The notes under the pieces were generated by a model that made no database searches, was not told the origin of the DNA, and saw only the letters and a program-made list of their open reading frames with translations. Of a stretch of 47,703 nt of DNA, positions 20,180 to 42,145 are shown in pieces (positions within the stretch are counted from its first letter, which is position 1; every line of letters begins with the position of its first letter). The position numbers and the translations under genes are program-made. The stretch covers positions 3,186,864 through 3,234,566 of the forward strand of contig CP070648.1 of assembly GCA_020354555.1 (NCBI GenBank), read 5' to 3'. This DNA is from Armatimonadota bacterium. Its GTDB lineage: Bacteria; Armatimonadota; Hebobacteria; GCA-020354555; CP070648.

Positions 20180-22342
20180 ATGGCCAGACAAGCACTCGCA
20201 GCAATCGCCGCAGTCCTGATCGCGCTCACCGCCGCCCCCTCGCGATCGGGCATCCTCGACCCGATCTCGCGACCTCGACTCGTAGGCAGCGAGGCGCTGA
20301 ACCACCTCGTGGTTGATCTGCCGCGATTCCCGTACGGTCCCGGCGACGGCATCGTCGGTTGGGGCATCAGACGCACGTGCGGCACGACGTGGTCGCGCGT
20401 CCCGCGCTACGTCGCGTTCCTGGAACAGCGCGGAAAGCTCGATGGCGCGTGGCGCCCGCAGTGGGACCGCACGGCGCTGCTCACGGTCGGGGGACGGATG
20501 TATCCCAACTCATTCTCTGCTGCCGGTACCGGACGATACGGCGAGGCCACCAACCAGATCACCTTTGCCTACAGCGGTTGGACGACGATCGAGCAGCAGC
20601 AGCTCGCCGCGTACGTCAGCGCCGCCTATCCAACCATCAGATCCATCTACGGCCCTCCTGCCTCGAACATCACCGTCACTATCGTCCGCGACGGTCAGCT
20701 GCAGAACATCCTCGGCGGCGTGTACGTCCCTGCCACTAACGAAATCCGTCTGCCGCCGATGCAGGATCTCTCTCGCGACACCTACGTCCTTGCGTCGCTC
20801 ATCGTCCGCGCCTTTCACGACGACCTGTATGTCGCACATGACGTGTGGGAGACGGGCTTCGCGCGCGCGGTCGCCCTGGTTGCGCATCTCCAGGTGGATA
20901 CCAACTTCGATCTCTCCGGCGAGCCGTTCTACCTCATGCCGTTCTACGAGTTGCTCAATCAGCGTCCGCTGGCGAGTCCGACGGTTTTCCCACCCTCGGG
21001 CTATACCGGCATGACGTTCTGGCGCGTCGGCATGGCTCAAGCCGCCTGGCTCAAGGTGTACGCCGAGAATCCCAACTTTTTCCGCGACTTCAACGCCGCC
21101 TACTACGCGGAGTACAATCCCGGCGCGACGCCGCCGCTGTCGCAGAACGTCCAACGCTTACGCCAGATCGCGGCACAGGCAGCGCCTCAGGTCGAAGGGA
21201 TGTTATTCGAGTACTGGTTCGCCAGGCAATTCGTTCTCGACACCGACGGCTGGCAGGGCGAGAAACTCTACCTCGTCGCCCTGCCCCAGAATGACAACAT
21301 CACCGTCTTCCTCGAAGCCGACTACTACCGCACGACAAGCGCGGGAGACGAGCAGCCCCTGGCGGGCACCGGCAGCTTCCAGTACATCGGCTGGGACGGC
21401 AAGCTGTACGTCCCTGAAGCGGGCAACAACATTACGATACAGAACGGCCAGGGCTTCCTGGCGCCCAGCTTCTATAACATCGGCGGCGCGCAGCGTATCA
21501 CGGTCGAACTCGCGGCGGTCGCACAGGTCGTCGAGTCATGGTTTCCGTACGGCGTCGTCACCCCGAACGGCGGGCATAACGAGTACTTCGGTGTCATCGT
21601 TGACGCCAACGGCGGGACGGTGAGCGTGATGCCGCCCGGTATACCGACCCCGTCCGCCAATGTCATCCGGGGCGTGTTCTCCGTGAACCAGCCGGAGGCT
21701 CTAGACTTCCTCGCGCCAACCGCGGTGGAATACCAGCCGCCCGTCGGACCGGCGAATCTGCGCCTGGCCAACACTGGTTTTCTGTTCTACGTCTTTGTGC
21801 TGCGCGCACACCCCCCGCAGTTGGGCATTGCTCAGCGGACGTTCCCCGCGGGATTGTCCATGGCAGCGCTGCCCGCAAGCCCGGACGAGTCAGATGCGGC
21901 GGAGCTTCTCGGCCTCCCGGCCGGTCAGACGCTGCTCTCGCGGTGGTCGCCCACGCTGGCCGGCGGCTATCGCTATGTCTTCTATCCCGACACGCCGCCC
22001 ATCGAGCCAGGCCTCGGCTACTGGCTGAAGCTCAGCGCGCCGCGCACGGTGACCACACACGGCATGCTGCCGTCCGGCGAGTGCCGCTTGCATCTCCGCC
22101 AGGGCTGGCATCAGATCGCCAACCCGTTCAGCGCTGCAGCGCCCCTGACGGCGGTTAAGGTCAAGTTCGCAAACACCGCTCCGGTCACCCTTGCGCAGGC
22201 TCAGGGCAGCGGGATCGTCAGCAGCATCTTCCGCTATGCCGGCGGCTCGTACGTCGTGCCGCAAGAGCTTCCGCCCTACGAAGGCCTGTGGATTTACGTT
22301 TTCCCGAAGCAGGGATGCTATCTGATTATCTCGGAACCGTGA
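20180..22342 (+). CDS. Large secreted protein with a possible inactive gluzincin-like core
   Basis: The 720-residue product has a clear signal peptide (about residues 1-23, MARQALAAIAAVLIALTAAP). I cannot name a family for the whole. Residues 150-330 look like the core of a gluzincin metallopeptidase: YPTIRSIYGPPASNITVTIV, then LIVRAFHDDLYVAHDVWETGFARAVALVAHL. In active enzymes the corresponding helices read HExxH and then W-x-x-EG; here they are FHDD (212-215) and VWETG (222-226), so the zinc site appears lost. This is pattern inference. The C-terminus (about 560-720) holds a duplicated beta unit: LSMAALPASP ... LGYWLKLSAP and then CRLHLRQGWHQIANPF, a layout seen in many exported proteins of PVC and Armatimonadota-like bacteria. 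It is the first gene of a three-gene unit. Confidence 0.82.
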   Translation: MARQALAAIAAVLIALTAAPSRSGILDPISRPRLVGSEALNHLVVDLPRFPYGPGDGIVGWGIRRTCGTTWSRVPRYVAFLEQRGKLDGAWRPQWDRTALLTVGGRMYPNSFSAAGTGRYGEATNQITFAYSGWTTIEQQQLAAYVSAAYPTIRSIYGPPASNITVTIVRDGQLQNILGGVYVPATNEIRLPPMQDLSRDTYVLASLIVRAFHDDLYVAHDVWETGFARAVALVAHLQVDTNFDLSGEPFYLMPFYELLNQRPLASPTVFPPSGYTGMTFWRVGMAQAAWLKVYAENPNFFRDFNAAYYAEYNPGATPPLSQNVQRLRQIAAQAAPQVEGMLFEYWFARQFVLDTDGWQGEKLYLVALPQNDNITVFLEADYYRTTSAGDEQPLAGTGSFQYIGWDGKLYVPEAGNNITIQNGQGFLAPSFYNIGGAQRITVELAAVAQVVESWFPYGVVTPNGGHNEYFGVIVDANGGTVSVMPPGIPTPSANVIRGVFSVNQPEALDFLAPTAVEYQPPVGPANLRLANTGFLFYVFVLRAHPPQLGIAQRTFPAGLSMAALPASPDESDAAELLGLPAGQTLLSRWSPTLAGGYRYVFYPDTPPIEPGLGYWLKLSAPRTVTTHGMLPSGECRLHLRQGWHQIANPFSAAAPLTAVKVKFANTAPVTLAQAQGSGIVSSIFRYAGGSYVVPQELPPYEGLWIYVFPKQGCYLIISEP

Positions 22343-22350
22343 GGACGACA

Positions 22351-22989
22351 ATGAGACGACGCTTCTCAGTGCAATATGCAGGGCTTGCCGCGTGCCTGTG
22401 CGCCGCCGTCGTCGTGGCGGGATGCGGCGGAGGAGGGGGGCAGGCCGAGCCGTTCACGTTGGCCGGCACGGTGACCAGCGAGTCCGGCCCCGCCATCGCG
22501 GGAGCCGTGGTGACCGCCACCGTGTCGGGACAGTCGCAGCCGGTGGGGGCAACGACCACCACCAGCACCGGGGTCTACGGTCTTGTACTTCCCCCGGCAA
22601 CCTACGTCGTGGAAGCGAGCGCCGCCGGGTTTGTCGCCCAACAGCAGATCGTAACGATCACCGCGAGTCAGCCCAGACTCTCGGTCGACTTCAGCCTGAG
22701 CCCAGTCAGCGAACCGCCACCGACGCCGGCGACTGTCGCAGGCCGAGTCACCAACGCGGTCACGTCGGCGCCTATCTCGGGCGCCACGGTGACGGCGACG
22801 CTTCAAGGCCAGACGACACCGCTTGAGACGACCACCACTAATGCCGACGGGGAATACGGCTTCATACTCGGCGATGGCAGTTACGTAATCCGCGTCACTG
22901 CGGCTGGTTTCGTGTCGGCGCAGCGGACCGTCACGGTGACCCTGCCGGTGGCGAACCTAGGCGTTGATTTCGCCCTCACTCCGTCGTAG
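22351..22989 (+). CDS. Lipoprotein with two carboxypeptidase-regulatory-like domains
   Basis: The 212-residue product has a lipoprotein signal ending in VVVAGC (cysteine at about residue 25), then a glycine run. Two copies of an about 85-residue Ig-like beta domain follow: FTLAGTVTSESGPAIAGAVVTAT ... YGLVLPPATYVVEASAAGF and VAGRVTNAVTSAPISGATVTAT ... YGFILGDGSYVIRVTAAGF. This is the carboxypeptidase regulatory-like/CnaB-type fold, a non-catalytic adhesion or spacer module. A proline-rich linker (SEPPPTPAT) joins them. GAGG lies six bases before the ATG at 22351, eight bases after the previous stop. The lipid anchor places it on the outer face of a membrane. Confidence 0.9.
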   Translation: MRRRFSVQYAGLAACLCAAVVVAGCGGGGGQAEPFTLAGTVTSESGPAIAGAVVTATVSGQSQPVGATTTTSTGVYGLVLPPATYVVEASAAGFVAQQQIVTITASQPRLSVDFSLSPVSEPPPTPATVAGRVTNAVTSAPISGATVTATLQGQTTPLETTTTNADGEYGFILGDGSYVIRVTAAGFVSAQRTVTVTLPVANLGVDFALTPS

Positions 22990-25650: not shown

Positions 25651-26673
25651 ATGACATCCCGCTGGTACCTGCTGGTTGTCGTGCTCTTGCCGGCGGCCCT
25701 CGCCGGATGCGCGTCGCCGCGGCAGAATCTCGCTGCCGTGGGCGAATCGTGCATCGCTTGGTTCGCCAGCAAGGAATTGCGCTGGATGAAGGTCGCCGGC
25801 ACGACACCCCGCGAAGTCCGCTCCTGTCCGCTTCCCGAGCCGGTCCTGGACTGTGCGCCCGCGACGCTCGGAGACGCGTGCGGCGTGGTCGCGTCCGGCG
25901 CGAACAACCTGTACGTAACGCGCACGTGGGCAAATGCAACAACGGCACTCGTCTCGGTTGCGCCTGATGTGGTGCGGGACATGTGTGCGCATGACCTCGA
26001 CGGGGACGGGTGGGACGAAGTCCTCGTGCTCGCCGGCGAGCGTGCGACCGGGCGCGGCGAGCTTCGCATCTACTCTCTGCGCCATCGGCGTTGGATATGG
26101 CGCGGCCTCCGTCCCGAACTTCATCCCTGGAAGGTCCGCGCGGGCGATGTTGACGGGGACCAGTCGCCTGACGTCGTCGTCGGCGTGTGGAAGACAACTC
26201 GGTTCGATCCGGTCTGGGATAACCGGCCGTTCGTGTATCAGTGGTTGGACGGCGACTTGCACCCGAGCTGGCTGGGTTCTCGTCTGCCGAAGAGATTCAC
26301 GGATTTCGAGCTGGCGGACACAGACCAGGACGGACGTGACGAGATCGTGGCGGTCGGGCGGACGGAGGACGGCAACTGCCTCTTCTCCTGCGAGCGCTAC
26401 GGATTCGGCTTCTGGGGCGCATGGACGGGCCAGGTTGTGTCGAAGATCAGTCACGTGTCACCGGGCGGGAGCCCCGCGACTGTGTTTACGTCGGAAGGCG
26501 ATTCGCGCCCGACGGTCTGGGCCTATCGGACGAGCGAGGATGCAGTGCGCGTGGAGCGCGTCGCCGAGCTGCGGGCCGCTCCGCAGGCATTCTGTGCACT
26601 CGATGACGCTCGACTTGCGTACGTGGATAGGGACCGGTTACGCGTTCTGACAGTCCGCAAAGGAGGTACATGA
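25651..26673 (+). CDS. Lipoprotein with FG-GAP/VCBS-type repeats
   Basis: The 340-residue product begins with a textbook lipoprotein signal, LLPAALAGC (Leu-Ala-Gly-Cys, cysteine near residue 19). It carries calcium-loop motifs of FG-GAP/VCBS blades: DLDGDGWDEVLVL, DVDGDQSPDVVVG and DTDQDGRDEIVAVG, spaced 50-70 residues apart, so it is probably an exported beta-propeller anchored to a membrane. Such proteins bind ligands, glycans or partner proteins and are usually not enzymes. The ATG at 25651 follows GCCGAG, a weak ribosome binding site. The end overlaps the next gene by ATGA, a strong sign that the two lipoproteins are made together. Confidence 0.87.
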   Translation: MTSRWYLLVVVLLPAALAGCASPRQNLAAVGESCIAWFASKELRWMKVAGTTPREVRSCPLPEPVLDCAPATLGDACGVVASGANNLYVTRTWANATTALVSVAPDVVRDMCAHDLDGDGWDEVLVLAGERATGRGELRIYSLRHRRWIWRGLRPELHPWKVRAGDVDGDQSPDVVVGVWKTTRFDPVWDNRPFVYQWLDGDLHPSWLGSRLPKRFTDFELADTDQDGRDEIVAVGRTEDGNCLFSCERYGFGFWGAWTGQVVSKISHVSPGGSPATVFTSEGDSRPTVWAYRTSEDAVRVERVAELRAAPQAFCALDDARLAYVDRDRLRVLTVRKGGT

Positions 26674-28814
26674 TGCGACGCTGGCAGATCGTGGCTTTGG
26701 CGAGTCTGATAGTCATGACGGCCACCGGCTGCGGCGGGCGTTCTCGGCCGCAGGGGAGCGCTCCGACTACGACGGGCGGTGGCTCCGCACAGCGCGGCGA
26801 ACCGGCGCCCGTAGTCGCGCGGATCCCGGCCTACGAGGTCGCGCCGGACATCTCAAACATCGTCAATCGCGAGCAGTTTGGAGAGTTCGCAAAGCCGGCG
26901 CGAGAGTTGCTGGCGCGAAATGCCTTCGTCTGCCTGCCGACGGATGAGGTGCAGCTCTATGATATCTACGAGCAGAACGACTACCTGCAGATCCCAAGTT
27001 TCATCACCACCGATTCGGTGCTCCAGATCTACCACATCTTCTTCGACTACACGTTGCGCACGACAGAGACTGAGAAACTCTACCCGGTGCTCGAGAAACT
27101 GACTACAGCTATGCTGTCGGAGGCGCTGAAGACCCACGAGCAGGCGCGCGACGCGGCGGTGAAGGACGCCGCCCTGCGGAACGTCGCGTACTTCCTGGTG
27201 CCGGCGAGCATCCTCGAGTTGAAGACGCCAAGAGCCCCGGGGGATGCGGCGGCCCTTGCGGAAGTCGAGCTGAGACAAATCACGGCGCACGGCGCTCGCA
27301 GGGCCAGCCCGATCTTCGGCTATGATTTGGATTACACGCAGTTCAACCCGCGCGGACATTACACCCGCACCGAGCGCTTCAAGCGTTTCTTCAAGGCGAT
27401 GATGTGGTATGGGCTCGTGCCGTTCGCGTTCCCCGAGGTGGAAGCCGACGGCCGGGTCATCTGGAAGGAATCGTACAAGCGCTCGACGCTCCAGGCCGTG
27501 CTGGTTGTAAGAGACCTGCTTGCGGCGAAGGGCGGCGGCAAACCGGCCCGCGATCTGTGGGAGACAATCTACGAGCCGACGGCCTTCTATGTCGGAGCGG
27601 CGGATGATCTGTTCGCGGACGATGTCGAGCCGGTGATGCGCAAAGTGTACGGCAACGCGCCAAGCCTTTCGTCGTTTGCCGATCAGAGGAGACTCGATGA
27701 CTTCGCGCGGCGGATTGCGAAGACGCGACCGCCGAGGATTGACGTCCAGCTCATCGGCATACCGGGCGGCATGCAGTACCGCTTCATGGGCCAGCGCTAC
27801 ATCCCCGATTCGGAGATCATGCAGCGGCTCGTCAAGTGGCCTGAGCGGCCGTGGCCGTTGGGCCTCGACGTCGCGGCGGTCCTCGGCTCCGACCGCGCCG
27901 CAACCATACTCGATGACGTCTACAAGGAGCCAGAGAAATGGGACGAGTACCTGCCCAAGCGGAGCCAACTCCGTCGGGAGTTCGATGCGCTCGACGAGAG
28001 CAAGTGGCTGTCGAATCTCTACTTCGGCTGGCTGTGGTCGCTCAAGGCTCTCGTGGCGGAAGCGCCTGAGGGCTATCCCTCGTTCATGCGCTCGACGGCC
28101 TGGCTCGACAAGAGCCTTAACACATTCCTCGGGAGCTGGGCCGAGCTGCGCCATGACACAATCCTCTATGCCAAGCCGTCCGGCGCCGAGTGCGGCGACG
28201 GAGAGGAGCCGCCGCCGCCGCCGAAGGGATACGTCGAGCCGAACCCGGAGTTCTACGGACGTATGCTCGAACTGACCCGGCTGTCGCGCGAAGGCCTGAC
28301 AAAGCGCGATCTGTTATCGGAGAAGGTGCAGGACAAGTTCCGAGCGCTGGAGGACATGCTTGATTTCCTGCGCCGCGTGTCAATCAAGGAACTCGGGGGC
28401 GAGGAGCTGACGCGCGAGGAGTACGAGGAGATCGAGATCTACGGCGCGCGCCTCGAACACCTCACCCTGTCCGTGGCGGAGGGTGACATCCTCAGCGACA
28501 CAGACAAGGACATGGCGGTCATCGCCGACGTGCACACCGTGGTCAACGAAGCGCTGGAAGAGGGCGTCGGGCATGCAGCCGAGGTCTACGTCGTGGTACC
28601 GATAGCCGGGAAGCTGTATCTGACGCGCGGGGCGGTCTTCAGCTACTACGAGTTCACCTGGCCGGCGAGTGATCGGTTGACGGATGAGAAATGGCAGCAG
28701 ATGCTGCGCGACGGCAAGGCGCCCGACCGGCCGGTGTGGGCCAGGAGCTTCTACCTCGACAAGAGCCGCGACATCCCGAAGCCGAAGAAGGTCTTCTACT
28801 CCGGTGGCTGCTGA
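26670..28814 (+). CDS. DUF3160-family lipoprotein
   Basis: The 714-residue protein has a lipoprotein signal (MTATGC, cysteine near residue 21), a low-complexity Gly/Ser/Thr linker and a long, mainly alpha-helical domain. Features I associate with DUF3160 are FVCLPTDEVQLYDIYEQNDYLQIPSFIT, TTDSVLQIYHIFFDYTLR, GMQYRFMGQRYIPDS and the C-terminal GAVFSYYEFTWPASDRLTDEKW. The family has no established function. AGGAGG at 26661-26666 serves either the ATG at 26670 (overlapping the previous stop) or the better spaced ATG at 26673. The last codons overlap the next gene's GTG start. Coupling on both sides suggests that its partners are the FG-GAP lipoprotein and the CapA-like protein. Confidence 0.88.
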   Translation: MMRRWQIVALASLIVMTATGCGGRSRPQGSAPTTTGGGSAQRGEPAPVVARIPAYEVAPDISNIVNREQFGEFAKPARELLARNAFVCLPTDEVQLYDIYEQNDYLQIPSFITTDSVLQIYHIFFDYTLRTTETEKLYPVLEKLTTAMLSEALKTHEQARDAAVKDAALRNVAYFLVPASILELKTPRAPGDAAALAEVELRQITAHGARRASPIFGYDLDYTQFNPRGHYTRTERFKRFFKAMMWYGLVPFAFPEVEADGRVIWKESYKRSTLQAVLVVRDLLAAKGGGKPARDLWETIYEPTAFYVGAADDLFADDVEPVMRKVYGNAPSLSSFADQRRLDDFARRIAKTRPPRIDVQLIGIPGGMQYRFMGQRYIPDSEIMQRLVKWPERPWPLGLDVAAVLGSDRAATILDDVYKEPEKWDEYLPKRSQLRREFDALDESKWLSNLYFGWLWSLKALVAEAPEGYPSFMRSTAWLDKSLNTFLGSWAELRHDTILYAKPSGAECGDGEEPPPPPKGYVEPNPEFYGRMLELTRLSREGLTKRDLLSEKVQDKFRALEDMLDFLRRVSIKELGGEELTREEYEEIEIYGARLEHLTLSVAEGDILSDTDKDMAVIADVHTVVNEALEEGVGHAAEVYVVVPIAGKLYLTRGAVFSYYEFTWPASDRLTDEKWQQMLRDGKAPDRPVWARSFYLDKSRDIPKPKKVFYSGGC

Positions 28815-29886
28815 GCGATCACCGGCAATCGTGGCGGTAAGAACGCTGGCGTGGATCGTCGCCGCGGCGACGGCCATCGCGGGCGTCGTCATGTGGTTCG
28901 GCGCCGCGCGGCGGCCGGTCATGCTCGTCGCGGTCGGCGACGTTCTGCTCGACCGCGGCGTTGCCCGGCGCGTAGCTCGGGACGGGCATGAGTGTCTCAC
29001 CGAAGCAATCTGGCCCTTCCTACGCGACGCGGACATTGCGGTGTGCAACCTCGAATGCCCGCTGGCGTCCGGGCGCGCCGCGGCGGCCAAGCCGATCATC
29101 TTCGGCGGCCCTGCCGAAGGGGCGAGTTGGCTGCGGGAAGCGGGCTTCGACGCGGTATCGCTGGCCAACAACCACGCGCTCGACCAGGGCCGCGATGGCC
29201 TAATGCGGACGATGGCAGGCCTGGATCGCGCCGGCGTGGCGTGGTTCGGTGCGGGAACGAACCAGGCCGAAGCATCCCGGCCGCGGATCATCCGCTGTCG
29301 CTCCAAACGCGTTGCGCTGCTAGGCTTCACGGTGTTCCCGGACGAGGGTGTTTTCTTCAATCCGAGCGCGCCCGGGACTGCGCGTGCGGACCCCACTGCC
29401 ATTCGCCGTGCGGTACGCCTGGCGAGAGACCTCGGGGATCTGGTCATCGTCTCATTCCACTGGGGGAACGAGTTCCAGAATCTGACCTCAGATGCTCAGC
29501 GCCGCATCGGACGCCTGGCGGTTGACTCCGGCGCGGATATCGTCGTGGGTCACCACCCGCACGTCATCCAGGGCGCGGAGGTCTATCGCGGCGGACTGAT
29601 TGCCTACAGCGTTGGCAATGTCGTCTTCGATCAGCACCGCCGCGGCGCGAATCACGCACTGTTGCTCCGCGCGACGTTCCACCGCCGCACGACAGACGTG
29701 TCGTTCGAACCCGTGCTGATCGCGGACTGTCTTCCCGTTCGCCCGGACGAGCAGCACGCACAAGAGATCTTGCGACGGTTCCGTTCCCTGTGCGAAGGTC
29801 TCGACACTCATGTTTCCCTGACCGGCGGCTCGGCTTCCATTCGTCTTCCAGCAAGAGGACGCGCGGGCTCGGCGGACAATTATTGA
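28804..29886 (+). CDS. CapA-family metallophosphatase-like protein
   Basis: The product (360 residues from this start) has an N-terminal membrane helix (TLAWIVAAATAIAGVVMWFG) and a PGA_cap/CapA domain: MLVAVGDVLLDRGVA, DADIAVCNLECPL, FDAVSLANNHALDQG, VIVSFHWGNEF, ADIVVGHHPHVIQG and YSVGNVVFD. These are the metal-binding motifs of the calcineurin-like phosphoesterase fold. In Bacillus the relative CapA takes part in poly-gamma-glutamate capsule export; the other capsule genes are absent here, so the role may be different. The GTG at 28804 overlaps the DUF3160 stop; a GTG at 28831 is another candidate and would shorten the cytoplasmic end. The membrane anchor and lipoprotein neighbours point to the envelope. 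Confidence 0.9.
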   Translation: MAAERSPAIVAVRTLAWIVAAATAIAGVVMWFGAARRPVMLVAVGDVLLDRGVARRVARDGHECLTEAIWPFLRDADIAVCNLECPLASGRAAAAKPIIFGGPAEGASWLREAGFDAVSLANNHALDQGRDGLMRTMAGLDRAGVAWFGAGTNQAEASRPRIIRCRSKRVALLGFTVFPDEGVFFNPSAPGTARADPTAIRRAVRLARDLGDLVIVSFHWGNEFQNLTSDAQRRIGRLAVDSGADIVVGHHPHVIQGAEVYRGGLIAYSVGNVVFDQHRRGANHALLLRATFHRRTTDVSFEPVLIADCLPVRPDEQHAQEILRRFRSLCEGLDTHVSLTGGSASIRLPARGRAGSADNY

Positions 29887-29888
29887 GC

Positions 29889-29905
29889 CCGACCCCCTGG
29901 GTCGG
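29889..29905 (+). terminator. GC-rich hairpin after the CapA-like gene
   Basis: CCGACCC (29889-29895) and GGGTCGG (29899-29905) form a perfect 7-base-pair stem with a 3-base loop, two bases after the stop codon. No T tract follows, so partial termination or protection of the upstream mRNA is as likely as full termination. Confidence 0.35.
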
Positions 29906-29949
29906 ATCATCCATACTGCGATTGAGGTGGTGTATCCCGCACAGCGCGC

Positions 29950-31560
29950 ATGCAGGCACGAATCATGCGCGCCAGCACAACGAGCATGCAACCTACGTCT
30001 GTCTTCTATGTCCGCACCGACGACGTGGAGGAGGACGAGCGCATCGCGCTGGCGGCACTGCAAGGGCTGGCCAATCGAGGTGCGCCGCGGCTGTTCCTCA
30101 TTCACGGCGCCGCCGATGAGCACTGGCTGCACTGGTACGCCAGTTACGGCTTCGCGCCGGAGAAGCGCGCGTTCGACGAAGCCCTCCAAGCGTTGGGCGA
30201 CTGTCTTAAGGGCGCCGTCGTCTGGGACGAGAAGCTACGCGACACAATCCCGCTTTCGCTTTCCATCGCCGGCGCGCGCGATGTCCTGCCTCTCAGCGCG
30301 CGATTGGCTGAACGGCTCAATCTGCCGGTCGTCGAAGACTTGCGCGGCCGCTGGCAGGATCGCGTGGCTGCCTATCGCTGGGCGCATGAGCAGGTATGGC
30401 CGAATTGCTCCAGAGACATCCTCGGCAGCTTCGGTGTGCGCGACGAGCCCGGCTCGTTCAGCAACCTCGTCTGCGACCTGCTCGTGGCCCGGCGCGGATT
30501 CGCTTCGAGCCTCGCCGTCTCAACCGATCTGCCGGACGAGGCCGCTCTCTGCGAGCGCTTCATGTCCGAGACGAACGATCTCGCGTTGGCGGTCGGTTGG
30601 CACACGCATCGCGATATCGAGGCGACCTACGTTGACGCCTGCTCGCGCCACGGGATGATTCAGATCTGCTCCTCCGGCGGGTCGAACATGTCGTTTCACC
30701 AGCACGTCGCCGCCCAGCAACTACTGAAGCAAGATCACTTTGACGAGGCCGGCATCGAACTGCGCAAGGCCGTCTATGTGACCTTCAACCAGACCGACGG
30801 CGACGCGCTCCACTCCATGTGCAACCTGCAGCAAGGGCAGTGGGGGAGCCCGTTGCGCGGCTCGATACCGATGGGCTGGTGGATTGCGCCGAAGCTGGCG
30901 CACGACCTTGGCCCGGCGTTGCTTGAATATTACTACCGCACCCGCACCGCCAACGATTACCTGGTTGCCGGGCCATCAGGAGCGGGCTACAACTACCCAT
31001 CGGTGATGCCGAATCTCGACGAGTATCTGCGCACGACCGCCGAGTACATGAAACTGACGAACACGCGCGCCATCCACGTCATCAACCGCGTGGTCAAGCG
31101 CGTCCCGGGCGACAAGGTGCTCCATCGCACCGCCGCCGGCGATATCCCGCTGTCCATCGAGGACGGCGGGCTCAACGAGGAGTTGAAGAACACGTACGGC
31201 GCGGATTACCTCGATGATGACGTCGCGGAGAACTACGCTCGCGCACTACCGGGCTGCATCGGCTTCTTCCAGGGCTTCGAGACAGTAGTGGGGGAGGAGG
31301 ACCGTTTCCCGGCAGGCGCGCCGTGGATCCCTACGAAGGTTATGGTCGACAGCCCGGCGCAAGGGCTGCGCGACATCGAGCGTTTCCTCGAAGGCAGATC
31401 CCTCCCGGCGTTCGTCTCGGCGACCATCAACATGTGCGGCCCGATGAATCGCAGCATGTTCGAGAAGTTGACGGAACTCGCGCGGGAGCTGCGCGCGCGC
31501 GGCCATCTCATCGTGCGCCCCGACGAGTTCCTCATTGCCTGCCGAAAGGCGCACTCATGA
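29950..31560 (+). CDS. GxGYxYP-family protein (putative glycan-active)
   Basis: The 536-residue protein contains the name-giving motif of the GxGYxYP family, GAGYNYP at residues 344-350 within AGPSGAGYNYPSVMP. Other blocks are DDVEEDERIALAALQGLANRGAPRLF at the start, VYVTFNQTDGDALHSMCNLQQGQW, GSIPMGWWIAPKLAHDLGPALLEYYY and PAFVSATINMCGP. The family is described as putative glycoside hydrolases on fold grounds, without proven activity as far as I know. Unlike many members it has no signal peptide from this start, so it may be cytoplasmic. Possible starts are ATG 29950, 29965 and 29986, none with a good ribosome binding site. The end overlaps the next gene by ATGA. Confidence 0.87.
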   Translation: MQARIMRASTTSMQPTSVFYVRTDDVEEDERIALAALQGLANRGAPRLFLIHGAADEHWLHWYASYGFAPEKRAFDEALQALGDCLKGAVVWDEKLRDTIPLSLSIAGARDVLPLSARLAERLNLPVVEDLRGRWQDRVAAYRWAHEQVWPNCSRDILGSFGVRDEPGSFSNLVCDLLVARRGFASSLAVSTDLPDEAALCERFMSETNDLALAVGWHTHRDIEATYVDACSRHGMIQICSSGGSNMSFHQHVAAQQLLKQDHFDEAGIELRKAVYVTFNQTDGDALHSMCNLQQGQWGSPLRGSIPMGWWIAPKLAHDLGPALLEYYYRTRTANDYLVAGPSGAGYNYPSVMPNLDEYLRTTAEYMKLTNTRAIHVINRVVKRVPGDKVLHRTAAGDIPLSIEDGGLNEELKNTYGADYLDDDVAENYARALPGCIGFFQGFETVVGEEDRFPAGAPWIPTKVMVDSPAQGLRDIERFLEGRSLPAFVSATINMCGPMNRSMFEKLTELARELRARGHLIVRPDEFLIACRKAHS

Positions 31561-32627
31561 GAGTGCTCTACCGCGCGGACGGCAGCCCGGACATCGGGAC
31601 CGGGCATATCGTTCGCGGGCTGATACTTCGGCGCCGACTTGAAGCCGCTGGCCTGCAAGTAACCTTCCTCACGCGCGACTTCCCCTGGGGTGTCGAGCGC
31701 CTGCGCAAAGCGGGGTGTGACGTGATCGTCATCCCGCGTGACGCGAGCGAGATGCGGGAATGCGACGCGCTGCGCGAGGCCGGGGGAATTGGATCCGCTC
31801 GAGTATGCGTGATGGACGCCCTCGAAACATCCGAGGCGCAGACCCGCGCCGTCGTTGAGCATGGTTCTCGCCTCGTGTGTCTCGATGACGTCGGGCCGGG
31901 GCGGCTTCACGCCAACGCCATCATCAATGTGCTCGAAGTGGAGCCCGAGCCCGACGCCCTGGCCGAGCGTGGGATCGCCCTCTACGAAGGGCCGGACTAT
32001 GTCCCGTTGGTCGAGGAGTACGAGCAGCCGGGGATCGCCGAACGTGAGATACCGGAGAAGGTCCGGCGCATCCTCATTACTCTCGGCGGCGCCGATCCGG
32101 CGGGCCTTGCGCCCAAGGCTGCGCGCGCAGTGAAGCGGGCGTTTGAGAGCCGCAAGGCGGAGACGGCGTTCGAATCGCCCAGCGCTGTCTTGCTCATCGG
32201 CGCCGCTTCGCCCTCGCGCGATCGGGTTCTGGGCGCCATCAAGGGCGCCGAGGACCTGTTCACAATCGCCGACAGCCTGCCGTCGCTGCTGCCTGCGCTG
32301 AGGGAAGCGGATCTCGGCATCATCGCCGGCGGCCTGACCATGCACGAGGCGCTGGCGGTCGGCCTGCCGGCCATCGCGCTCTGCCAGCCCGTGCGCCATC
32401 AAGCGGAGCTGGCGCGGCGCTTCGCGGACCGCGGCGCGATGCTGACGCTGGGTGCGGCGTCGGATGTCCCCGAGGAGCGCATTGCCCAGGCGGTTCTCTC
32501 TCTCGCGCGCGATTTTGACCTGAGACGCCGGCTCGCCGCAGCGGGCCCGCGGCTCGTTGACGGCTGCGGTGCGGAACGCACGGCCGGCGTGATTTGCGAC
32601 GTCGGCCGCGGGCGTCCGAGAACATAA
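31557..32627 (+). CDS. PseG/SpsG-like GT-B fold protein
   Basis: The 356-residue protein starts MRVLYRADGSPDIGTGHIVRGLILRRRL, which matches the N-terminal nucleotide-sugar-binding signature (R-x-D-x5-G-x-GH-x-R) of PseG, the hydrolase that removes UDP in pseudaminic acid synthesis, and of SpsG of spore-coat polysaccharide synthesis. Further matches are VCLDDVG, ILITLGGADPAGL and DLGIIAGGLTMHEALAVGLPAIALC, with LGGxDP binding the diphosphate in PseG and MurG-like proteins. PseB, PseC, PseH and PseI are absent here, so true pseudaminate synthesis is not supported. Starts with ATG overlapping the GxGYxYP stop (ATGA). A role in nucleotide-sugar hydrolysis or transfer for a surface glycan is the best reading. 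Confidence 0.86.
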   Translation: MRVLYRADGSPDIGTGHIVRGLILRRRLEAAGLQVTFLTRDFPWGVERLRKAGCDVIVIPRDASEMRECDALREAGGIGSARVCVMDALETSEAQTRAVVEHGSRLVCLDDVGPGRLHANAIINVLEVEPEPDALAERGIALYEGPDYVPLVEEYEQPGIAEREIPEKVRRILITLGGADPAGLAPKAARAVKRAFESRKAETAFESPSAVLLIGAASPSRDRVLGAIKGAEDLFTIADSLPSLLPALREADLGIIAGGLTMHEALAVGLPAIALCQPVRHQAELARRFADRGAMLTLGAASDVPEERIAQAVLSLARDFDLRRRLAAAGPRLVDGCGAERTAGVICDVGRGRPRT

Positions 32628-32655
32628 CCCCTTGCGCGGCTGCCCCTTGCAGGCA

Positions 32656-32685
32656 TGGACGAAGTGACGCCCCCGGTGGTACAAT
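32656..32685 (+). promoter_or_regulatory. Possible promoter for the DUF2339-DUF3999 pair
   Basis: TGGTACAAT (32677-32685) is an extended -10; a poor -35 (TGGACG, 32656-32661) is 18 bases before it. The leader of about 120 bases ends with a small hairpin, GCGCTGC-GAT-GCAGCGC (32772-32788), just upstream of the ribosome binding site. Confidence 0.45.
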
Positions 32686-32812
32686 TGCGTCGGCTAGGCC
32701 GAGCGGTACCACAACGTGCCACGTGGGGTCGCTGGGCTGCACGCGCAGCATGGCGGCGTTTCCCTTGGGATGCGCTGCGATGCAGCGCCGGCGAGTGGCA
32801 GAGGGAGCACGC

Positions 32813-35800
32813 ATGTACGAGTACGGCGTCCTTCTGGCGTTGCTCGTGCTCGCGGCGATCGTTGCCTTCCCGATCTATGTACTCCACCGGCTGTCAGAGC
32901 TTGACCGGCAAATTCGGGAGCTAAAGCGTCAATCTGGTCAGCCGCCGCCACCCCCAGAGCCTGTGACGGAAGAGCGCGTCCCTCCGGCGCCCCCGATTCC
33001 GGCGGAACTGCCGCGGCCAAAGCCGCCTGTCCCCGAGCACATCACTCGCGTCCCCGCCGCCGCTCAACCGGCTGAATCAGTTGCGCCGTCGCCCCCTTGG
33101 CCATCGGTCCCGCAGGCGCCGGTGCCACAGCCGCCAACGCCGCCACCACCGCCGCCACCCGCAGCGCCATCGCGTCCGACGGTTCCGCGCCCGGACCTGG
33201 AATCGCTCCTCGGCGCGAACTGGCTGAGCAAGCTCGGCGTCATTGCCATCGCAATCGCAACCGCCTTCTTCCTCAAGTACGCGTTCGATTCCGGGTGGAT
33301 CGGGCCGACGGCGCGCATCGCCATCGGACTCGTAGCTTCGTTCGCCTTACTCGGCCTCGGGCAGTTCCTGTTGACCAAGCCGCGCTACCGCGCGTACGCG
33401 CAGGTCCTGATGTCAGGCGGGATCATCATCTTCTTCCTCTCCGTGTACGCCGCCTATGCCCTGTATCACCTCATGGGCTTTTCGATGGCGTTCGCGCTGC
33501 TGACTCTTGCAGCCGTTGCCGCATCCGCTGTGGCCGCGGCGAACAACACGGAGGGTGTGGCGCTGCTGTGCATCGCCGGCGCGTTCGCGACTCCGGTGCT
33601 CATCCGCCAGGATGCCGCTGCGTCGAGCGACCTCGTCCGACTCTATGCGTACCTGGCCGGGCTCAACGTGTGGAGCGTGATCCTGGCGAGGTATCGCCCG
33701 TGGCGGTCGCTCACGGCCCTGTCATTCGGCGCGACGTGGCTCCTCTTCTTCGGGGCGGGCAAATTGCACGGGCCAAACTACCTCACGGTCGAGGCGTTCG
33801 CCGTCGCCTTCCTGTTCTTTGCCTGCTACAGCGGAATTGGCACCATGAGGGCAGAGCGTGAGCCGGCGCCGGAGATGCAGCGCGTCGGCGTTGCGCTCAT
33901 TCTGGCGGCATGCGTCGCTTTCGCGGTGGCGAGCGCGCTGATCCTCGCCGACGAGCAAGCGCTTGGATTGCCGGCGCTCGTATGCGCCGGTGTGCTCGTC
34001 GCGGCGTTGCTGGCCGGCCTAGCCGCGGCGCTGCCCAGCCTCGGTGTTGAGGACAGCGCGGTGCGCCAAGCTTTCCGGTATCTGTCGGCGGCGGCGCTCG
34101 CACTGCTCATCGGGGTCAGCGTGTTGCAGGCGCCACCGGTGACACGCGCACAGGCGCCAAGCGCCTTCTTGTTCGGTGTTTTTGTCTATCTCATCTTTCT
34201 CGGTGTTTCCTTGCGTATGCGGCGCGCCGGTGAGCCGGAAGCGCCGGCGATCGTCATGCTCGCGGCAGATGTCGCGGTGCATATTGCAGTGGCCTTCCGC
34301 TGCCTCGCGCCGCTGAGAGTCTGGGGCGCTGAAGCGGCGCCGCTGTGGCTCCCCATCGCGGGCTGGGTGACGCTCGGCGCGTTGTGGATTGCGGCGCGGC
34401 AGGAGCACGAGAAACGCAAGTTCCCGGTCGCGGTGATGCTCTGCGCGCTGGCGCTGCCGCTGATGGCGCTCGTACGCGCGTTGGAGATAACCGCGCCGTG
34501 GCCGGCGGCGGCGGGACTCGCGTTGTTCTTCGGGGAGTTCCTGCTGGTATCCGGGACGTGGGTGGCGCTGCGCCGTTTCACGGCCGTGCCCGCTCTTCGC
34601 GGTGACCTCCTTGCTGCGTTCGTCAACGCGGCGGTGTTCTTTGGCCTGATCGCCGTGGCGACGAAGCTGCGCGCATTCGAGGGTCTCGTCCTGCTGTGCG
34701 GCGGCGCGCTCGCGTTCGCGGCGTATCACGCGTTCATCGGCGGCATGATCCTCCGCCGCGGGCAAGAGGGCCCGCTGCTTCGTTTCGTTTACCTCGGGCT
34801 TGCGCTGACCTTCGCGACTATCGCGATCCCGCTTCAGTTGCGCGCCGGCTATATCACGCTCGCGTGGGCCGTAGAGAGCGCGATCCTCGTGTGGACCGGC
34901 CTCAACGTCGGTGACACGCGGGTGCGCTGGTACGGTATCGCGCTGCTGGCGGTCACCGCAGGGAAGGCGCTGTTTCTGGACGCACCGATAGGCCCGGACC
35001 CGTTTCGCCTGCTCCTCAACAGCCGCATGCTGTCGGGCGCCTCCGCCGCGGCGGCGGCCTATGTTTCCGCGTGGCTCCTGTGGCGCGCGCGCGCCGACAT
35101 AACTGGCGATGAGCGCCCCGTGCCGGCGCTCCTGGCGTTGCTCGCCAACACGCTCACTCTCATCTTCATCAGCCTCGACCTATGGGATCACTTCGGACGC
35201 GCCTTGCCGGTTGCCGCCGCGCGCAGCGCCCAGCAGCTCGCGTTGACCTTCTTCTGGAGCGTTTACGCCGTGGCGTTGATCCGGATCGGCGTCGCCATCC
35301 GTGACCGGCGCGTGCGTTGGGGTGGGATCATCTTGCTCTCCATCGCGGCGACCAAGTCGTTGTTCTTCGACCTTGCCGGCCATCCGGCGCCGTTCCGATT
35401 GCTTCTGAATGACCGGCTGCTCTCCGGCGCCGCCGTGGTCGCTGCCGCATACGTTTCGACCTGGTTGCTGCAACGCGAACGGGAGAACCTCACGCCCGAT
35501 GAACGCGTGCTGCCCACCGCTCTTGCGTTCATCGCCAGCCTTTTCACGCTGATCTTCGTCAGCCTCGACCTGTGGGATTACTTCGGCCGCGCGGAGGCAT
35601 TCGCGGAACGGCGCAGCGCGCAGCAGCTTGCGCTCTCCATTTTCTGGAGCGTCTACGCCCTCGCCGTGATGTCCGTTGGCATTTGGCGCCGCGTGCGGCC
35701 AGTTCGCCTGTTCGCGATGGCACTGCTGTACGTTTCGATCTTCAAGGTCTTCGCGTTCGACCTCGGTTTCCTCGAACAACCCTATCGCATCGTGTCCTTC

Positions 35801-35869
35801 TTTGGGTTAGGTGTGATACTTCTCGTGGTGAGCCTGCTCTATACGCGCTTCGAGGAGCGACTGAAGTGA
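32813..35869 (+). CDS. DUF2339 polytopic membrane protein
   Basis: The 1018-residue protein has an N-terminal membrane helix with a short charged coiled segment (RLSELDRQIRELKRQ), a proline-rich linker (about residues 45-130) and then many membrane helices. LLGANWLSKLGVIAIAIATAFFLKYAFDSGWIGP and ARIAIGLVASFALLGLGQFL are the hallmark start of the DUF2339 domain. Function is unknown; its size and helix number suggest transport or an envelope assembly role. The C-terminal 300 residues show a 130-residue period (see the separate repeat entry). GAGGGAG lies six bases before the ATG at 32813; the frame extends upstream to 32594 but crosses the likely promoter. The following DUF3999 gene overlaps by GTGA, an association known in other bacteria. 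Confidence 0.9.
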   Translation: MYEYGVLLALLVLAAIVAFPIYVLHRLSELDRQIRELKRQSGQPPPPPEPVTEERVPPAPPIPAELPRPKPPVPEHITRVPAAAQPAESVAPSPPWPSVPQAPVPQPPTPPPPPPPAAPSRPTVPRPDLESLLGANWLSKLGVIAIAIATAFFLKYAFDSGWIGPTARIAIGLVASFALLGLGQFLLTKPRYRAYAQVLMSGGIIIFFLSVYAAYALYHLMGFSMAFALLTLAAVAASAVAAANNTEGVALLCIAGAFATPVLIRQDAAASSDLVRLYAYLAGLNVWSVILARYRPWRSLTALSFGATWLLFFGAGKLHGPNYLTVEAFAVAFLFFACYSGIGTMRAEREPAPEMQRVGVALILAACVAFAVASALILADEQALGLPALVCAGVLVAALLAGLAAALPSLGVEDSAVRQAFRYLSAAALALLIGVSVLQAPPVTRAQAPSAFLFGVFVYLIFLGVSLRMRRAGEPEAPAIVMLAADVAVHIAVAFRCLAPLRVWGAEAAPLWLPIAGWVTLGALWIAARQEHEKRKFPVAVMLCALALPLMALVRALEITAPWPAAAGLALFFGEFLLVSGTWVALRRFTAVPALRGDLLAAFVNAAVFFGLIAVATKLRAFEGLVLLCGGALAFAAYHAFIGGMILRRGQEGPLLRFVYLGLALTFATIAIPLQLRAGYITLAWAVESAILVWTGLNVGDTRVRWYGIALLAVTAGKALFLDAPIGPDPFRLLLNSRMLSGASAAAAAYVSAWLLWRARADITGDERPVPALLALLANTLTLIFISLDLWDHFGRALPVAAARSAQQLALTFFWSVYAVALIRIGVAIRDRRVRWGGIILLSIAATKSLFFDLAGHPAPFRLLLNDRLLSGAAVVAAAYVSTWLLQRERENLTPDERVLPTALAFIASLFTLIFVSLDLWDYFGRAEAFAERRSAQQLALSIFWSVYALAVMSVGIWRRVRPVRLFAMALLYVSIFKVFAFDLGFLEQPYRIVSFFGLGVILLVVSLLYTRFEERLK
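34919..35869 (+). repeat. 390-base tandem repeat inside the DUF2339 gene
   Basis: Units begin at 34919 (residue 703), 35309 (residue 833) and 35699 (residue 963, partial), so the period is exactly 130 codons. Corresponding blocks are RVRWYGIALL/RVRWGGIILL, DPFRLLLNSRMLSGA/APFRLLLNDRLLSGA, LIFISLDLWDHFGRA/LIFVSLDLWDYFGRA and SAQQLALTFFWSVYA/SAQQLALSIFWSVYA. DNA identity is high in places, which suggests a fairly recent duplication within the gene. Confidence 0.9.
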
Positions 35870-37095
35870 AGAGAATCCTGGCTGTGACGCTGCTGCTCGC
35901 GACCGCGCCGGGCTGGGCGGACTTGACGCGTGCGGATTGGCGCGTCTCACGACCGATCGTGCTGCCGGACATCGCCGCGCCCCAACTGGTATATCTCCCT
36001 TTGGGCGAGAAGGCTTTGGCGCTGCGGTCATTGTCGGAGTATCGGATCGTGCGCGACGGCGGCGTCGAGGTGCCGTACCGGATGTTTACCGAGAGCGGTC
36101 AGAGCGAGATCAAAGTTCTCCCGGTTCGGTTGATCTCACAGGGGATGCGCGCTGAGCGGTGGCTTCAGGCAACGGTGGATGTGGGCCCGCAGGCGGCCGC
36201 GATAAACCAGGTTGAACTGCGGCTAGACGGAGACAACTTCCGCGGCCGCGTGCGTGTGGAGGGCAGCCATGACCGCGACCGATGGTGGCTGGTGCAAGGC
36301 AAACGGCTCGTGTACCGCCATGAGGCCCGCTTCGAGCAGACGACGGTGCCGCTGCCGCCCCATGACTATCGCTACCTGCGCGTCACGTTCGACCTGCTGC
36401 AAGGACGCCTGCCCACACTGCAAGACGTGCGTGTCGGCAGCGTTCTCACCATCCCGCGCACATTGATCGCGGTGGATGCTAAGCTGTCGCGCCGGGAGGA
36501 TACGAAAAGGCGTCGCACCGTGATTGAGTTGCGCATGTTGCACCCGACTCGCGACCTCGCGCAAGCGCGGTTCACAGTCCAGGACCCGGCCTTCGACCGC
36601 CCAGTGACGATTGAATCCGCTGTGGACAAGGGGGCGTATCGCGGGGAGGGCTCGGGAGTTCTGCGTCGGCTCGAGGCGGGCGAACCGGTGGCGTTGGATC
36701 TTCAGATACCACGAGCGCGTCGGGTGCGTCTCGCCATCTCGAATGGCAACGATCGCCCGCTTGCGATTACGGCGGTGACGCTGCTGCGCGTTCGCCGCGG
36801 GCTCGTGTTGCAGGCCGAGCCCGCGGCGACGTATGAGCTGTGGTACGGGCGCCCGGGTGTGCCGGAGCCTGTGTACGACATCCAGCGGCTGCCGCTCACG
36901 ACGCCGCCGTCAAAGCTCCCGTTGGCCGCATTGGGCCCGGAGCACAGGCTGCCGCCGAAACCTCCGCCCCCGCCGCCGTGGAGTGAACGCCATCCCGCAT
37001 TGCTCTGGAGCGCTTTGTTGGCGGTCGTTACTCTCCTCGCGATCCTCGTCGTACGCGCGATGCGCGGCGCGAAGGGAGCGCCGCCTCAGCCATGA
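35866..37095 (+). CDS. DUF3999-family exported protein
   Basis: The 409-residue product has a signal peptide (MKRILAVTLLLATAPGWA), an all-beta middle part and a C-terminal membrane helix (HPALLWSALLAVVTLLAILVVRAM) after a proline-rich stretch. WRVSRPIVLPDIAAPQLVYLPL, VELRLDGDNFRGRVRVEGSHDRDRWWLV and LPPHDYRYLRVTF match what I know of DUF3999, including an F5/8-type beta-sandwich-like strand pattern. The family usually sits beside DUF2339, as here. The GTG at 35866 overlaps the previous stop (GTGA), with GAGGAG eight bases upstream. The topology (periplasmic or outer-face domain with one helix) fits an accessory subunit of the polytopic DUF2339 protein. Confidence 0.88.
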   Translation: MKRILAVTLLLATAPGWADLTRADWRVSRPIVLPDIAAPQLVYLPLGEKALALRSLSEYRIVRDGGVEVPYRMFTESGQSEIKVLPVRLISQGMRAERWLQATVDVGPQAAAINQVELRLDGDNFRGRVRVEGSHDRDRWWLVQGKRLVYRHEARFEQTTVPLPPHDYRYLRVTFDLLQGRLPTLQDVRVGSVLTIPRTLIAVDAKLSRREDTKRRRTVIELRMLHPTRDLAQARFTVQDPAFDRPVTIESAVDKGAYRGEGSGVLRRLEAGEPVALDLQIPRARRVRLAISNGNDRPLAITAVTLLRVRRGLVLQAEPAATYELWYGRPGVPEPVYDIQRLPLTTPPSKLPLAALGPEHRLPPKPPPPPPWSERHPALLWSALLAVVTLLAILVVRAMRGAKGAPPQP

Positions 37096-37123
37096 GGGTC
37101 TGTGCAGCAACAGCGCGGTGCTA

Positions 37124-37153
37124 TTGACACGCCGGCGGCGCAACCGGTAATAT
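37124..37153 (+). promoter_or_regulatory. Predicted promoter of the TIM-barrel epimerase gene
   Basis: A consensus TTGACA (37124-37129) and TAATAT (37148-37153) are 18 bases apart, 28 bases after the DUF3999 stop and about 47 bases before the next ATG. Confidence 0.6.
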
Positions 37154-37206
37154 ACGATATCCGTTCAACAGCTTTCTGGACGGCATCCCACACGCCGGGC
37201 GGGTCC

Positions 37207-38136
37207 ATGCTTCGTCCCTGTGTTTTCACCGACGAGATATCGCAAGATCTCGAGCATGCTCTTGACGTCGCCGAGGAGTTCGGCGTCCGCGCGGTCGAAC
37301 TCAGGGGCGTGTGGGACGAGAGTATCGTCGAGCAGCCTGATGAAGAGGTGGCGCGAATCCGCGACATCCTTGTCGCACGCGGCTTCACGGTCGCCTCAAT
37401 CGCAACCGGTTTCTACAAGTGCGACCTGCCGGGCTTCCCGGCGCGCGAGGGGGTGGACGAGCAGGCGGCGGCGGCGACGGTTGAGCAGCACGTAGCGATG
37501 CTCCGGCGGGCCGTGGAGTTGTGCCGGGTGCTCGATGCGCCGGTGATCCGCGGATTCGCTTTCTGGCGCCCGGCGCACGTGCCGGTGGGAATCGAGCGCG
37601 ACGCGTCGGGCCCGAGCAACAAGCACTTGCGCGAGGCCGACGTCCCGCGTGAGGCCTGGACGCGCATGGTGGCCGCATTCGAGGAACCGGTGCGCATCAT
37701 CGAATCGGCGGGTGTGGTGTTCGGACTCGAAAATGAACACGCGTGCGGCGTGGGCCGCGGCGATGAGACTGCCCGGTTCATCGAGGATCTCGGCTCGCCG
37801 AGCCTGCGCGTGGCATGGGATCCCGGGAATGCGTTTTTCTCTGGCGAGGTGCCGTATCCAGACGGCTACGACCACATCCGGCCGTATGTCGCGCATGTCC
37901 ATGTCAAGGACGCCGCTGTGGAGCCGGACACGGGCAAGGCGCGCTGGGTGGTAATGGGCACCGGCGAGATTGACTGGCCACGCCAGTTCCGCGCGCTTAT
38001 CGAAGGCGGATACGAGGGCGCGGTGTCGCTGGAAACGCACTACACGCCAGCGGGCGGGACGCGCGAAGACGGCAGTCGCCTATGCATGGCCGCGATGATG
38101 GACATGCTGCGCGACGCCGGGTGGCACCCGGATTAG
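37207..38136 (+). CDS. Sugar phosphate isomerase/epimerase (AP endonuclease 2-type TIM barrel)
   Basis: The 309-residue protein belongs to the xylose isomerase-like/AP endonuclease family 2 superfamily. Evidence: FTDEISQDLEHALDVAEEFGVRAVELRGVW at the start, VVFGLENEHACGVG with the metal-binding Glu, LRVAWDPGNAFFSG with the metal Asp, HVHVKDAAVEP with the His-x-His pair and VSLETHYTP with the final Glu. Together these build the usual divalent-metal site. Relatives interconvert keto-sugars, inosose or hydroxypyruvate; the substrate cannot be told. ATG 37207 has only a GGGCGGG before it. The gene has its own promoter and is the last accessory gene before the fatty-acid operon. Confidence 0.92.
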   Translation: MLRPCVFTDEISQDLEHALDVAEEFGVRAVELRGVWDESIVEQPDEEVARIRDILVARGFTVASIATGFYKCDLPGFPAREGVDEQAAAATVEQHVAMLRRAVELCRVLDAPVIRGFAFWRPAHVPVGIERDASGPSNKHLREADVPREAWTRMVAAFEEPVRIIESAGVVFGLENEHACGVGRGDETARFIEDLGSPSLRVAWDPGNAFFSGEVPYPDGYDHIRPYVAHVHVKDAAVEPDTGKARWVVMGTGEIDWPRQFRALIEGGYEGAVSLETHYTPAGGTREDGSRLCMAAMMDMLRDAGWHPD

Positions 38137-38218
38137 GCCGATTGCCCGCGATGAGCTCAGACGTCGCGTATGGCGCTCGCCCCAGGTGTCGTGCGCAATC
38201 CTGACTCCTCCGGAATGC

Positions 38219-38270
38219 GGTTCTTGAGCGCGGTTCGCCCGGCATGGAGCGCTGCGTCAATGCAAGAACC
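38219..38270 (+). promoter_or_regulatory. Inverted repeat in the leader of yceD-rpmF
   Basis: GGTTCTTG (38219-38226) and CAAGAACC (38263-38270) are perfect 8-base arms. Directly inside the left arm AGCGC (38227-38231) can pair with GCGCT (38249-38253), giving a two-step stem. It ends 21 bases before the yceD ATG. It could be an RNA control element or an operator. No clear promoter is seen in this 155-base gap. Confidence 0.4.
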
Positions 38271-38291
38271 ACGTTCGTGCAGGCTGGTGAT

Positions 38292-38813
38292 ATGAAAATC
38301 GATCTCACCGACATAGCGCGAACGCCGGGCGCGCACGCTACACATCATTTCGAGGAAGCGTTGGCTCGCGACCCCGATGTCGACCTGGTCGAGCCCGCGC
38401 GGGGCAGCTTCTCGGTCACCAATACGGGCCGACTGCTGGTCTTGCGCGGGGCGATGACCGCGGCGGTCCGTCTGGAATGCGCCCGGTGCTGCGGGCCGGC
38501 CGTGGTGGCGCTGGATATACCGCTGAGCGAGGAGTTCAGCGCGCGGCCCGCTGCGGAATCGATCGAAGAGCAAACCATAGATGTCGAGGAGCCCGACCGA
38601 GCAGCGTTCCACGAGAACATCTTGGATCTAACCGAACTCGTGCGACAGAACGTTGTCATCAACCTGCCGCTGCAGCCGCTGTGTCGCGAGGGGTGCGCAG
38701 GAGTGTGCTCGCGCTGCGGCAGCGATCTCAACACGGGCACGTGCACCTGCCCGCCAGAGGAGCCGCACGGGCCGCTCGCCGAACTGAAGACGCTCATCGA
38801 ACGTCCGGACTAA
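38292..38813 (+). CDS. yceD: YceD family protein (DUF177)
   Basis: YceD proteins precede rpmF in most bacteria and have been linked to rRNA/ribosome assembly. The 173-residue product has the family's two parts: a beta-rich N-terminus with LVLRGAMTAAVRLECARCC, where the two cysteines belong to a metal-binding set, and a C-terminus INLPLQPLCREGCAGVCSRCGSDLNTGTCTCP, the cysteine-rich end typical of the non-proteobacterial branch. ATG 38292 (MKIDLTDI) is chosen over an upstream in-frame ATG at 38244 that would include leader sequence. The ribosome binding site is weak. It starts the operon that couples a ribosomal protein to fatty acid synthesis. Confidence 0.9.
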   Translation: MKIDLTDIARTPGAHATHHFEEALARDPDVDLVEPARGSFSVTNTGRLLVLRGAMTAAVRLECARCCGPAVVALDIPLSEEFSARPAAESIEEQTIDVEEPDRAAFHENILDLTELVRQNVVINLPLQPLCREGCAGVCSRCGSDLNTGTCTCPPEEPHGPLAELKTLIERPD

Positions 38814-38826
38814 GGAGGGAACCAAC

Positions 38827-39021
38827 TTGGCTCTGCCCAAGCGAAAGATCTCGAAGAGCCGCCGTGACAACAGGCGCGCGAACTGGAAGCTGACGCCGCC
38901 GAACTTCAGCAGATGCCCCCAGTGCCACGAATACCGAATGCCGCACCAAGCATGTCCGTCCTGCGGCTACTACTCCGGCCGCGCCGCCGTGCAGGTGAAG
39001 GAACGCAAGTCGCAGAAGTAA
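38827..39021 (+). CDS. rpmF: 50S ribosomal protein L32
   Basis: The 64-residue product begins MALPKRKISKSRRDNRRANWKL, as L32 does, and has a four-cysteine zinc ribbon (Cys30, Cys33, Cys43, Cys46; CPQC and CPSC), the zinc-binding form of the protein. The start codon is TTG at 38827, fixed by AAGGAGG at 38812-38818 eight bases upstream and by the conserved N-terminal sequence. The binding site overlaps the yceD stop codon (TAAGGAGG), so the two genes are probably translated in step. Confidence 0.97.
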   Translation: MALPKRKISKSRRDNRRANWKLTPPNFSRCPQCHEYRMPHQACPSCGYYSGRAAVQVKERKSQK

Positions 39022-39159
39022 CGCGCGATACGCGACGCCGTTTAGTTGCGCCTCGTGGCGGGATGCGAGGGCTGGCGGGGGAGTGGACAGGCGTGTTTGT
39101 CTCGAGCGAGCTATCGGCGAACCGATTGCGGACGCGAACTCTGAAGGAAAGGTGGCGAG

Positions 39160-41201: not shown

Positions 41202-41218
41202 GCGGGGACGGGGGAGTG

Positions 41219-42142: not shown

Positions 42143-42145
42143 TTG

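Follow-up and report, generated by a model that had tools for sequence, protein, structure and literature searches.

CapA proteins are common and are usually annotated as capsule proteins. MslH, a member of this family (PDB 8gq9, 8itg), epimerises the C-terminal tryptophan of a lasso peptide with the aid of a metal and two His/Asp dyads, acting through the carboxylate (PMC10406935). Without pgsA, the gene for another CapA, the D content of poly-glutamate falls from 75% to 5% (PMC6029982). The DUF3160 family (PF11369; arCOG03316) is listed as a secreted enzyme (PMC4158269). Among the GxGYxYP proteins, which include the putative glycoside hydrolase BT2193 (PDB 3sgg), a DxD pair and a third residue, Glu272, are proposed to be catalytic (PMC4071793).

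Members of all of these families, together with an FG-GAP protein and a protein resembling the UDP-sugar hydrolase PseG, are encoded by five open reading frames on the + strand of the window, by which we mean the whole stretch of 47,703 nucleotides that was analysed (Table 1). An earlier sequence-only reading had named the families and described the junctions, and both are borne out by the ORF coordinates and profile matches: genes 1 and 2, and likewise genes 4 and 5, overlap by ATGA, gene 3 most likely begins at a GTG lying 11 nt within gene 2, and 63 nt separate genes 3 and 4. The hairpin which that reading saw in this gap did not hold up, its stability being no better than that of shuffled sequence (z -1.08); a T-run is also absent, and a terminator hairpin between genes 3 and 4 is not supported. 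As read from the sequence, the lipobox is LAGC in gene 1 and TATGC in gene 2, and gene 3 begins with a membrane helix which would serve as an anchor. Gene 2 matches the DUF3160 profile over its full length (664.7 bits, positions 4-631 of 632) and gene 3 scores 242 bits against PF09587, where the curated cut-off is 27.

Table 1. Features of the five-gene region, with positions counted from the first nucleotide of the window.
Feature	Position	Strand	Remarks
Gene 1, lipoprotein with FG-GAP repeats (beta-propeller type)	25651..26673	+	340 aa; FG-GAP_3 2.8e-10
Gene 2, DUF3160 lipoprotein	26670..28814	+	714 aa; PF11369 1.9e-199
Cys508 codon, flexible ECGDGE loop of DUF3160	28191..28193	+	Covaries with the C-terminal cysteine
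DUF3160 C-terminal arm, residues 695-714, ...FYSGGC-COOH	28752..28811	+	Low pLDDT; (S/G/T)GC end kept across several phyla
Terminal Cys714 codon	28809..28811	+	TGA directly 3'
Gene 3, CapA/PGA_cap metalloenzyme	28804..29886	+	360 aa from GTG 28804 (most likely start); PF09587 9.4e-72
Gene 4, GxGYxYP putative glycoside hydrolase	29950..31560	+	PF14323 7.5e-37
Gene 5, PseG-like GT-B protein	31557..32627	+	TIGR03590 113.2 bits, cut-off 153.55

Upstream of this region (window 20180-22989) lie two genes, one for a protein of 720 aa without a Pfam hit and the other for carboxypeptidase regulatory-like repeats. In the closest relative (G001, locus L032; same family, gene 2 70% identical) the same pair, with 65% and 59% identity, immediately precedes the cassette; the radical-SAM and xylose-isomerase-like genes which in the window separate the pair from gene 1 are missing from this position. 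Downstream of gene 5 (window 32594-42910) genes for a membrane protein with DUF2339 and for a DUF3999 protein stand in a row, followed by a xylose-isomerase-like TIM barrel and then by FA_synthesis (plsX-like), FabH, FabD-like and FabG-like genes.

A search with DUF3160 found carriers in 45 of 151 related genomes, and those most like the query possess FG-GAP directly upstream and CapA directly downstream of DUF3160 on the same strand. When the scan was widened to one genome per species of bacteria and archaea, the order FG-GAP, DUF3160, CapA was also met in Bacillota and Myxococcota, and in Bacteroidota DUF3160 is followed by a CapA-FG-GAP fusion; the cassette recurs in these four phyla, Armatimonadota included, and in others. 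The co-occurrence of FG-GAP and CapA around DUF3160 (counts 42/17/3/45) gave p 2e-12 before phylogeny correction. In L066, L109, L143, L159, L174 and L177 the CapA and FG-GAP regions form a single ORF adjoining DUF3160; Pfam places both domains above cut-off in L109, and the FG-GAP part of the other fusions was recognised by the cassette's own profile or, in L177, by a sub-threshold Pfam match. No convincing fourth gene recurs among the cassette loci compared: ABC transporters occur near nine of them at scattered positions, and most of the remaining neighbour clusters consist of shadow ORFs from genes 1-3. On this comparative evidence genes 1-3 very probably constitute a conserved exported module, whose products most likely function together in one complex, either at the cell surface or in the periplasm.

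Some loci depart from this arrangement. L110, L113, L114, L274, L275 and L277, mostly from Bacillota, have FG-GAP upstream of a DUF3160 gene that has neither an adjacent CapA nor the C-terminal SGC described below; several of them keep the linker, L113, L114 and L277 still have Cys508, and they are probably recent losses. In a Gemmatimonadota genome (L158, CP070758) three DUF3160 genes are consecutive on one strand.

The most unusual feature of the locus, which the sequence-only reading missed, is the cysteine at the C-terminus of DUF3160. In most intact cassettes this protein ends in ...(Y/F)xSGC-COOH or in the close variants GGC and TGC; every tailed homologue stops at this cysteine, with a glycine just before it. 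At the first loci, GC is the ending of 41 of the 1,023 ORFs of at least 300 aa, and nearly all of these 41 encode DUF3160. The arm lies beyond the Pfam model, and most members of the family possess neither the arm nor Cys508 (ECG loop), whereas cassette members have both.

The two cysteines occur together. Cys508 was present in 34/34 tailed and 7/79 untailed proteins of the first sample (p 3e-22) and, under the same scoring rule, in 7/8 tailed and 2/38 untailed proteins from new genomes, which, with tail calls resting on ORF ends, many from metagenome assemblies, amounts to 41 of 42 tailed as against 9 of 117 untailed. Records common to several collections had been removed by identical sequence. 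On trees made with FastTree only and built without the cysteine columns, 8.8 independent pairs agree with the association and none oppose it (sign test, median p 0.004). In a set of 12 tail-less rows that nest within tailed ones, chosen by tree position after the tail pattern had been seen, only columns 508 and 714 differ in every row; in L125, an untailed protein, the ending is SGY and position 508 is Gly. L324 is the only tailed DUF3160 without Cys508, and L113, L114 and L118 have lost the tail and kept Cys508, as if the latter decays later. From these data we surmise that the terminal cysteine and Cys508 are in all likelihood functionally coupled.

Neither CapA nor FG-GAP contains an invariant cysteine which might be an alternative partner. 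Cys309 of CapA, found in 67% of the tail-linked, 21% of the untailed-linked and 5% of the unlinked proteins, is suggestive only as a partner of the tail. The possibility that the tail is a by-product of the overlap with CapA or of its start codon was also considered and rejected, because in several Bacillota (L100 and L108 among them) the CapA frame opens only after the DUF3160 stop and because four tailed proteins (L036, L043, L296 and L307) have no adjacent CapA. Elsewhere in the phylum, no CapA paralogue stands beside an SGC-ending protein.

The AF2 model of DUF3160 (pLDDT 87.4, pTM 0.86) shows the Cys508 loop (503-516) and the C-terminal tail as disordered. In sequence this loop adjoins the protein's most conserved stretch (RHDT 494-497 and GYVEP 520-524), which includes the invariant residues R494, H495, D496 and E523. 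Foldseek found no fold relative in the PDB (best E 0.08); in BFVD the sole match at E<=0.001 was a DUF3160 protein of Fadolivirus (A0A7D3QV25, E 4.2e-17), and since the viral library returned a member of the family, the search method works. The match is also an observation in its own right: DUF3160 is encoded by a giant virus, and the protein is recognised by fold.

The reading which we prefer, with a probability of roughly 55%, is that the two lipoproteins and the membrane-anchored CapA make up an exported three-component complex in which the C-terminal arm of DUF3160 is redox-latched. FG-GAP would hold CapA and DUF3160 together, and DUF3160 would itself be an enzyme. Cys714 and Cys508 would form a reversible disulfide or dithiol, the bond latching the arm over the conserved region (RHDT, GYVEP). 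That these two residues do pair in a disulfide appears fairly probable. The AF2 model does not place the two together, both being of low confidence, and it speaks against a latch that a purely structural disulfide needs no cysteine at the very last position. The module as such can evidently do without the arm, since CapA also adjoins untailed DUF3160 (26/107).

A different use of the same residues would lie in DUF3160 itself, where the terminal cysteine and Cys508 would serve as a catalytic dithiol or as a metal site, in the manner of the redox-active C-terminal arms known from other enzymes, with CapA as an independent partner. The location of both cysteines in mobile elements, one of them close in sequence to R494, H495, D496 and E523, is in keeping with this. 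Most DUF3160 proteins, however, have neither cysteine and retain the other invariant residues, so that the family's core activity does not depend on the pair, and we regard this explanation as unlikely.

The comparison of gene 3 with MslH raises a further possibility. The model of gene 3 (pLDDT 92) has a calcineurin-like fold, with MslH as its best fold match (E 2.2e-23, TM 0.73), far ahead of the 5'-nucleotidases. Most of the metal and acid/base residues of MslH are kept: D11, E44, N87, H88, D91, H259 and H295 correspond to D46, E84, N123, H124, D127, H219 and H253 of gene 3, D11 being placed by position, and all seven are invariant among cassette CapA members. Gene 3 has only three of the four metal ligands (E44, N87, H259 and H261), His261 being replaced by Gly (HWGxE versus HSH); it scores 85.5 bits against the MslH-type epimerase model NF038314, well below the equivalog cut-off of 700 bits; it possesses a membrane anchor; and its neighbour is a lipoprotein of 714 aa, not a precursor peptide.

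Conceivably this CapA, as an extracytoplasmic, metal-dependent enzyme of the MslH type, binds the free ...SGC carboxylate and inverts the terminal cysteine or modifies it in some other way. The cysteine is always last and preceded by Gly, MslH, the nearest solved structure, epimerises a C-terminal residue by way of the carboxylate (PMC10406935), the loss of pgsA affects the D-content of poly-glutamate (PMC6029982), and CapA is adjacent in 36 of the 40 tailed proteins with readable flanks as against 26 of 107 untailed ones. It is the strictly terminal cysteine together with the MslH chemistry that favours an action on the arm. On the other side, the association of tail and CapA on the tree (7.0 versus 0.5 pairs) has a median p of only about 0.04 (range 0.008-0.22) and is weaker than that with Cys508, and the four tailed exceptions named above have no adjacent CapA, with the proviso that in L036 one lies 5.7 kb away and that the downstream stretch of L307 contains masked bases. 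No CapA residue was found to be specific to partners of tailed DUF3160, and a ligand of the MslH metal is missing. Since CapA is kept beside untailed DUF3160 without matching changes in its own sequence, an action on the arm is disfavoured as its sole role, and the proposal as a whole is distinctly unlikely. Its fuller form, in which DUF3160 is the substrate on which CapA acts and the modified carboxylate (e.g. D-Cys) sets the redox latch with Cys508, is a shade more doubtful again.

The main proposal of the sequence-only reading was that the five genes may all belong to a single envelope or surface-glycan system, the tight same-strand packing and the two ATGA overlaps being in its favour. Comparison with other genomes groups only genes 1-3. 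As for the second suggestion, that of two adjacent units, the first unit is strongly recurrent and known from fusions, and the second is not a recurrent pair. GxGYxYP homologues are found in 88 of 151 relatives, and elsewhere just one stands beside the cassette, convergent to DUF3160 in L043. PseG-like homologues occur in 7 of 61 relatives, and one adjoins CapA again only in the closest relative. The three distant PseG-like genes examined are all in unrelated contexts (one next to genes for a MnmE GTPase and a glycosyltransferase of family 2, another next to those for a WD40 protein and for a flippase, the third near an apiosidase-like protein), and none adjoins GxGYxYP.

The closest relative is instructive here, for its locus lacks gene 4 and has gene 5 after gene 3. 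The CapA-PseG junction occurs there as a direct repeat of 164 bp (94%; L032:7893-8056 and 10581-10744; G001:C47), which flanks an inserted pair of NAD-epimerase and DHDPS-like genes, with a truncated PseG stub left after CapA. Given this repeat around the insert, the CapA and PseG genes were probably adjacent before the insertion, with no gene 4 between them. Genes 4 and 5 as a pair are ruled out by this locus and by their not being neighbours elsewhere among the genomes examined; as judged from gene neighbourhoods, they are unrelated neighbours of the cassette, and a five-gene system is very improbable.

Taken singly, gene 4 has the four Pfam domains of the GxGYxYP proteins, a GAGYNYP motif and the DxD pair; the equivalent of Glu272 falls outside the alignment, and gene 4 is not in a polysaccharide utilisation locus here. 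Gene 5 aligns with the PseG model over residues 1-277 but remains below the equivalog cut-off (Table 1) and has no further gene of a sugar pathway at its side; the genome carries a NeuB-family gene about 0.7 Mb away.

Gene 3 does share the PF09587 domain, the membrane anchor and predicted export with the CapA/PgsA proteins of CapBCA/PgsBCA, but a function in poly-gamma-glutamate or capsule synthesis like that of PgsA is hardly credible, as CapC/PgsC (PF14102) is absent from the whole genome, B. subtilis having been detected as a control, and no CapB/CapC-like gene recurs beside the cassette. The partners in the module are FG-GAP and DUF3160, and the other PgsBCA subunits do not recur at the locus. 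Nor was any glycan-synthesis family found to recur beside the cassette in the neighbour comparison, and for these two reasons the surface-glycan role which had been suggested is left unsupported.

The cassette gives one large group of CapA proteins a defined set of partners that is independent of capsules. DUF3160, an uncharacterised family of bacteria, archaea, eukaryotes and a giant virus, is now tied to specific partners, and within it a specific pair of cysteines is singled out, one of which is the last residue of the protein. If CapA does act on the tail, an explanation of its family's chemistry would reach further than lasso peptides and poly-glutamate, and an enzyme-substrate pair of this kind would represent editing of the C-terminal residue of a whole envelope protein, outside the peptide natural products.
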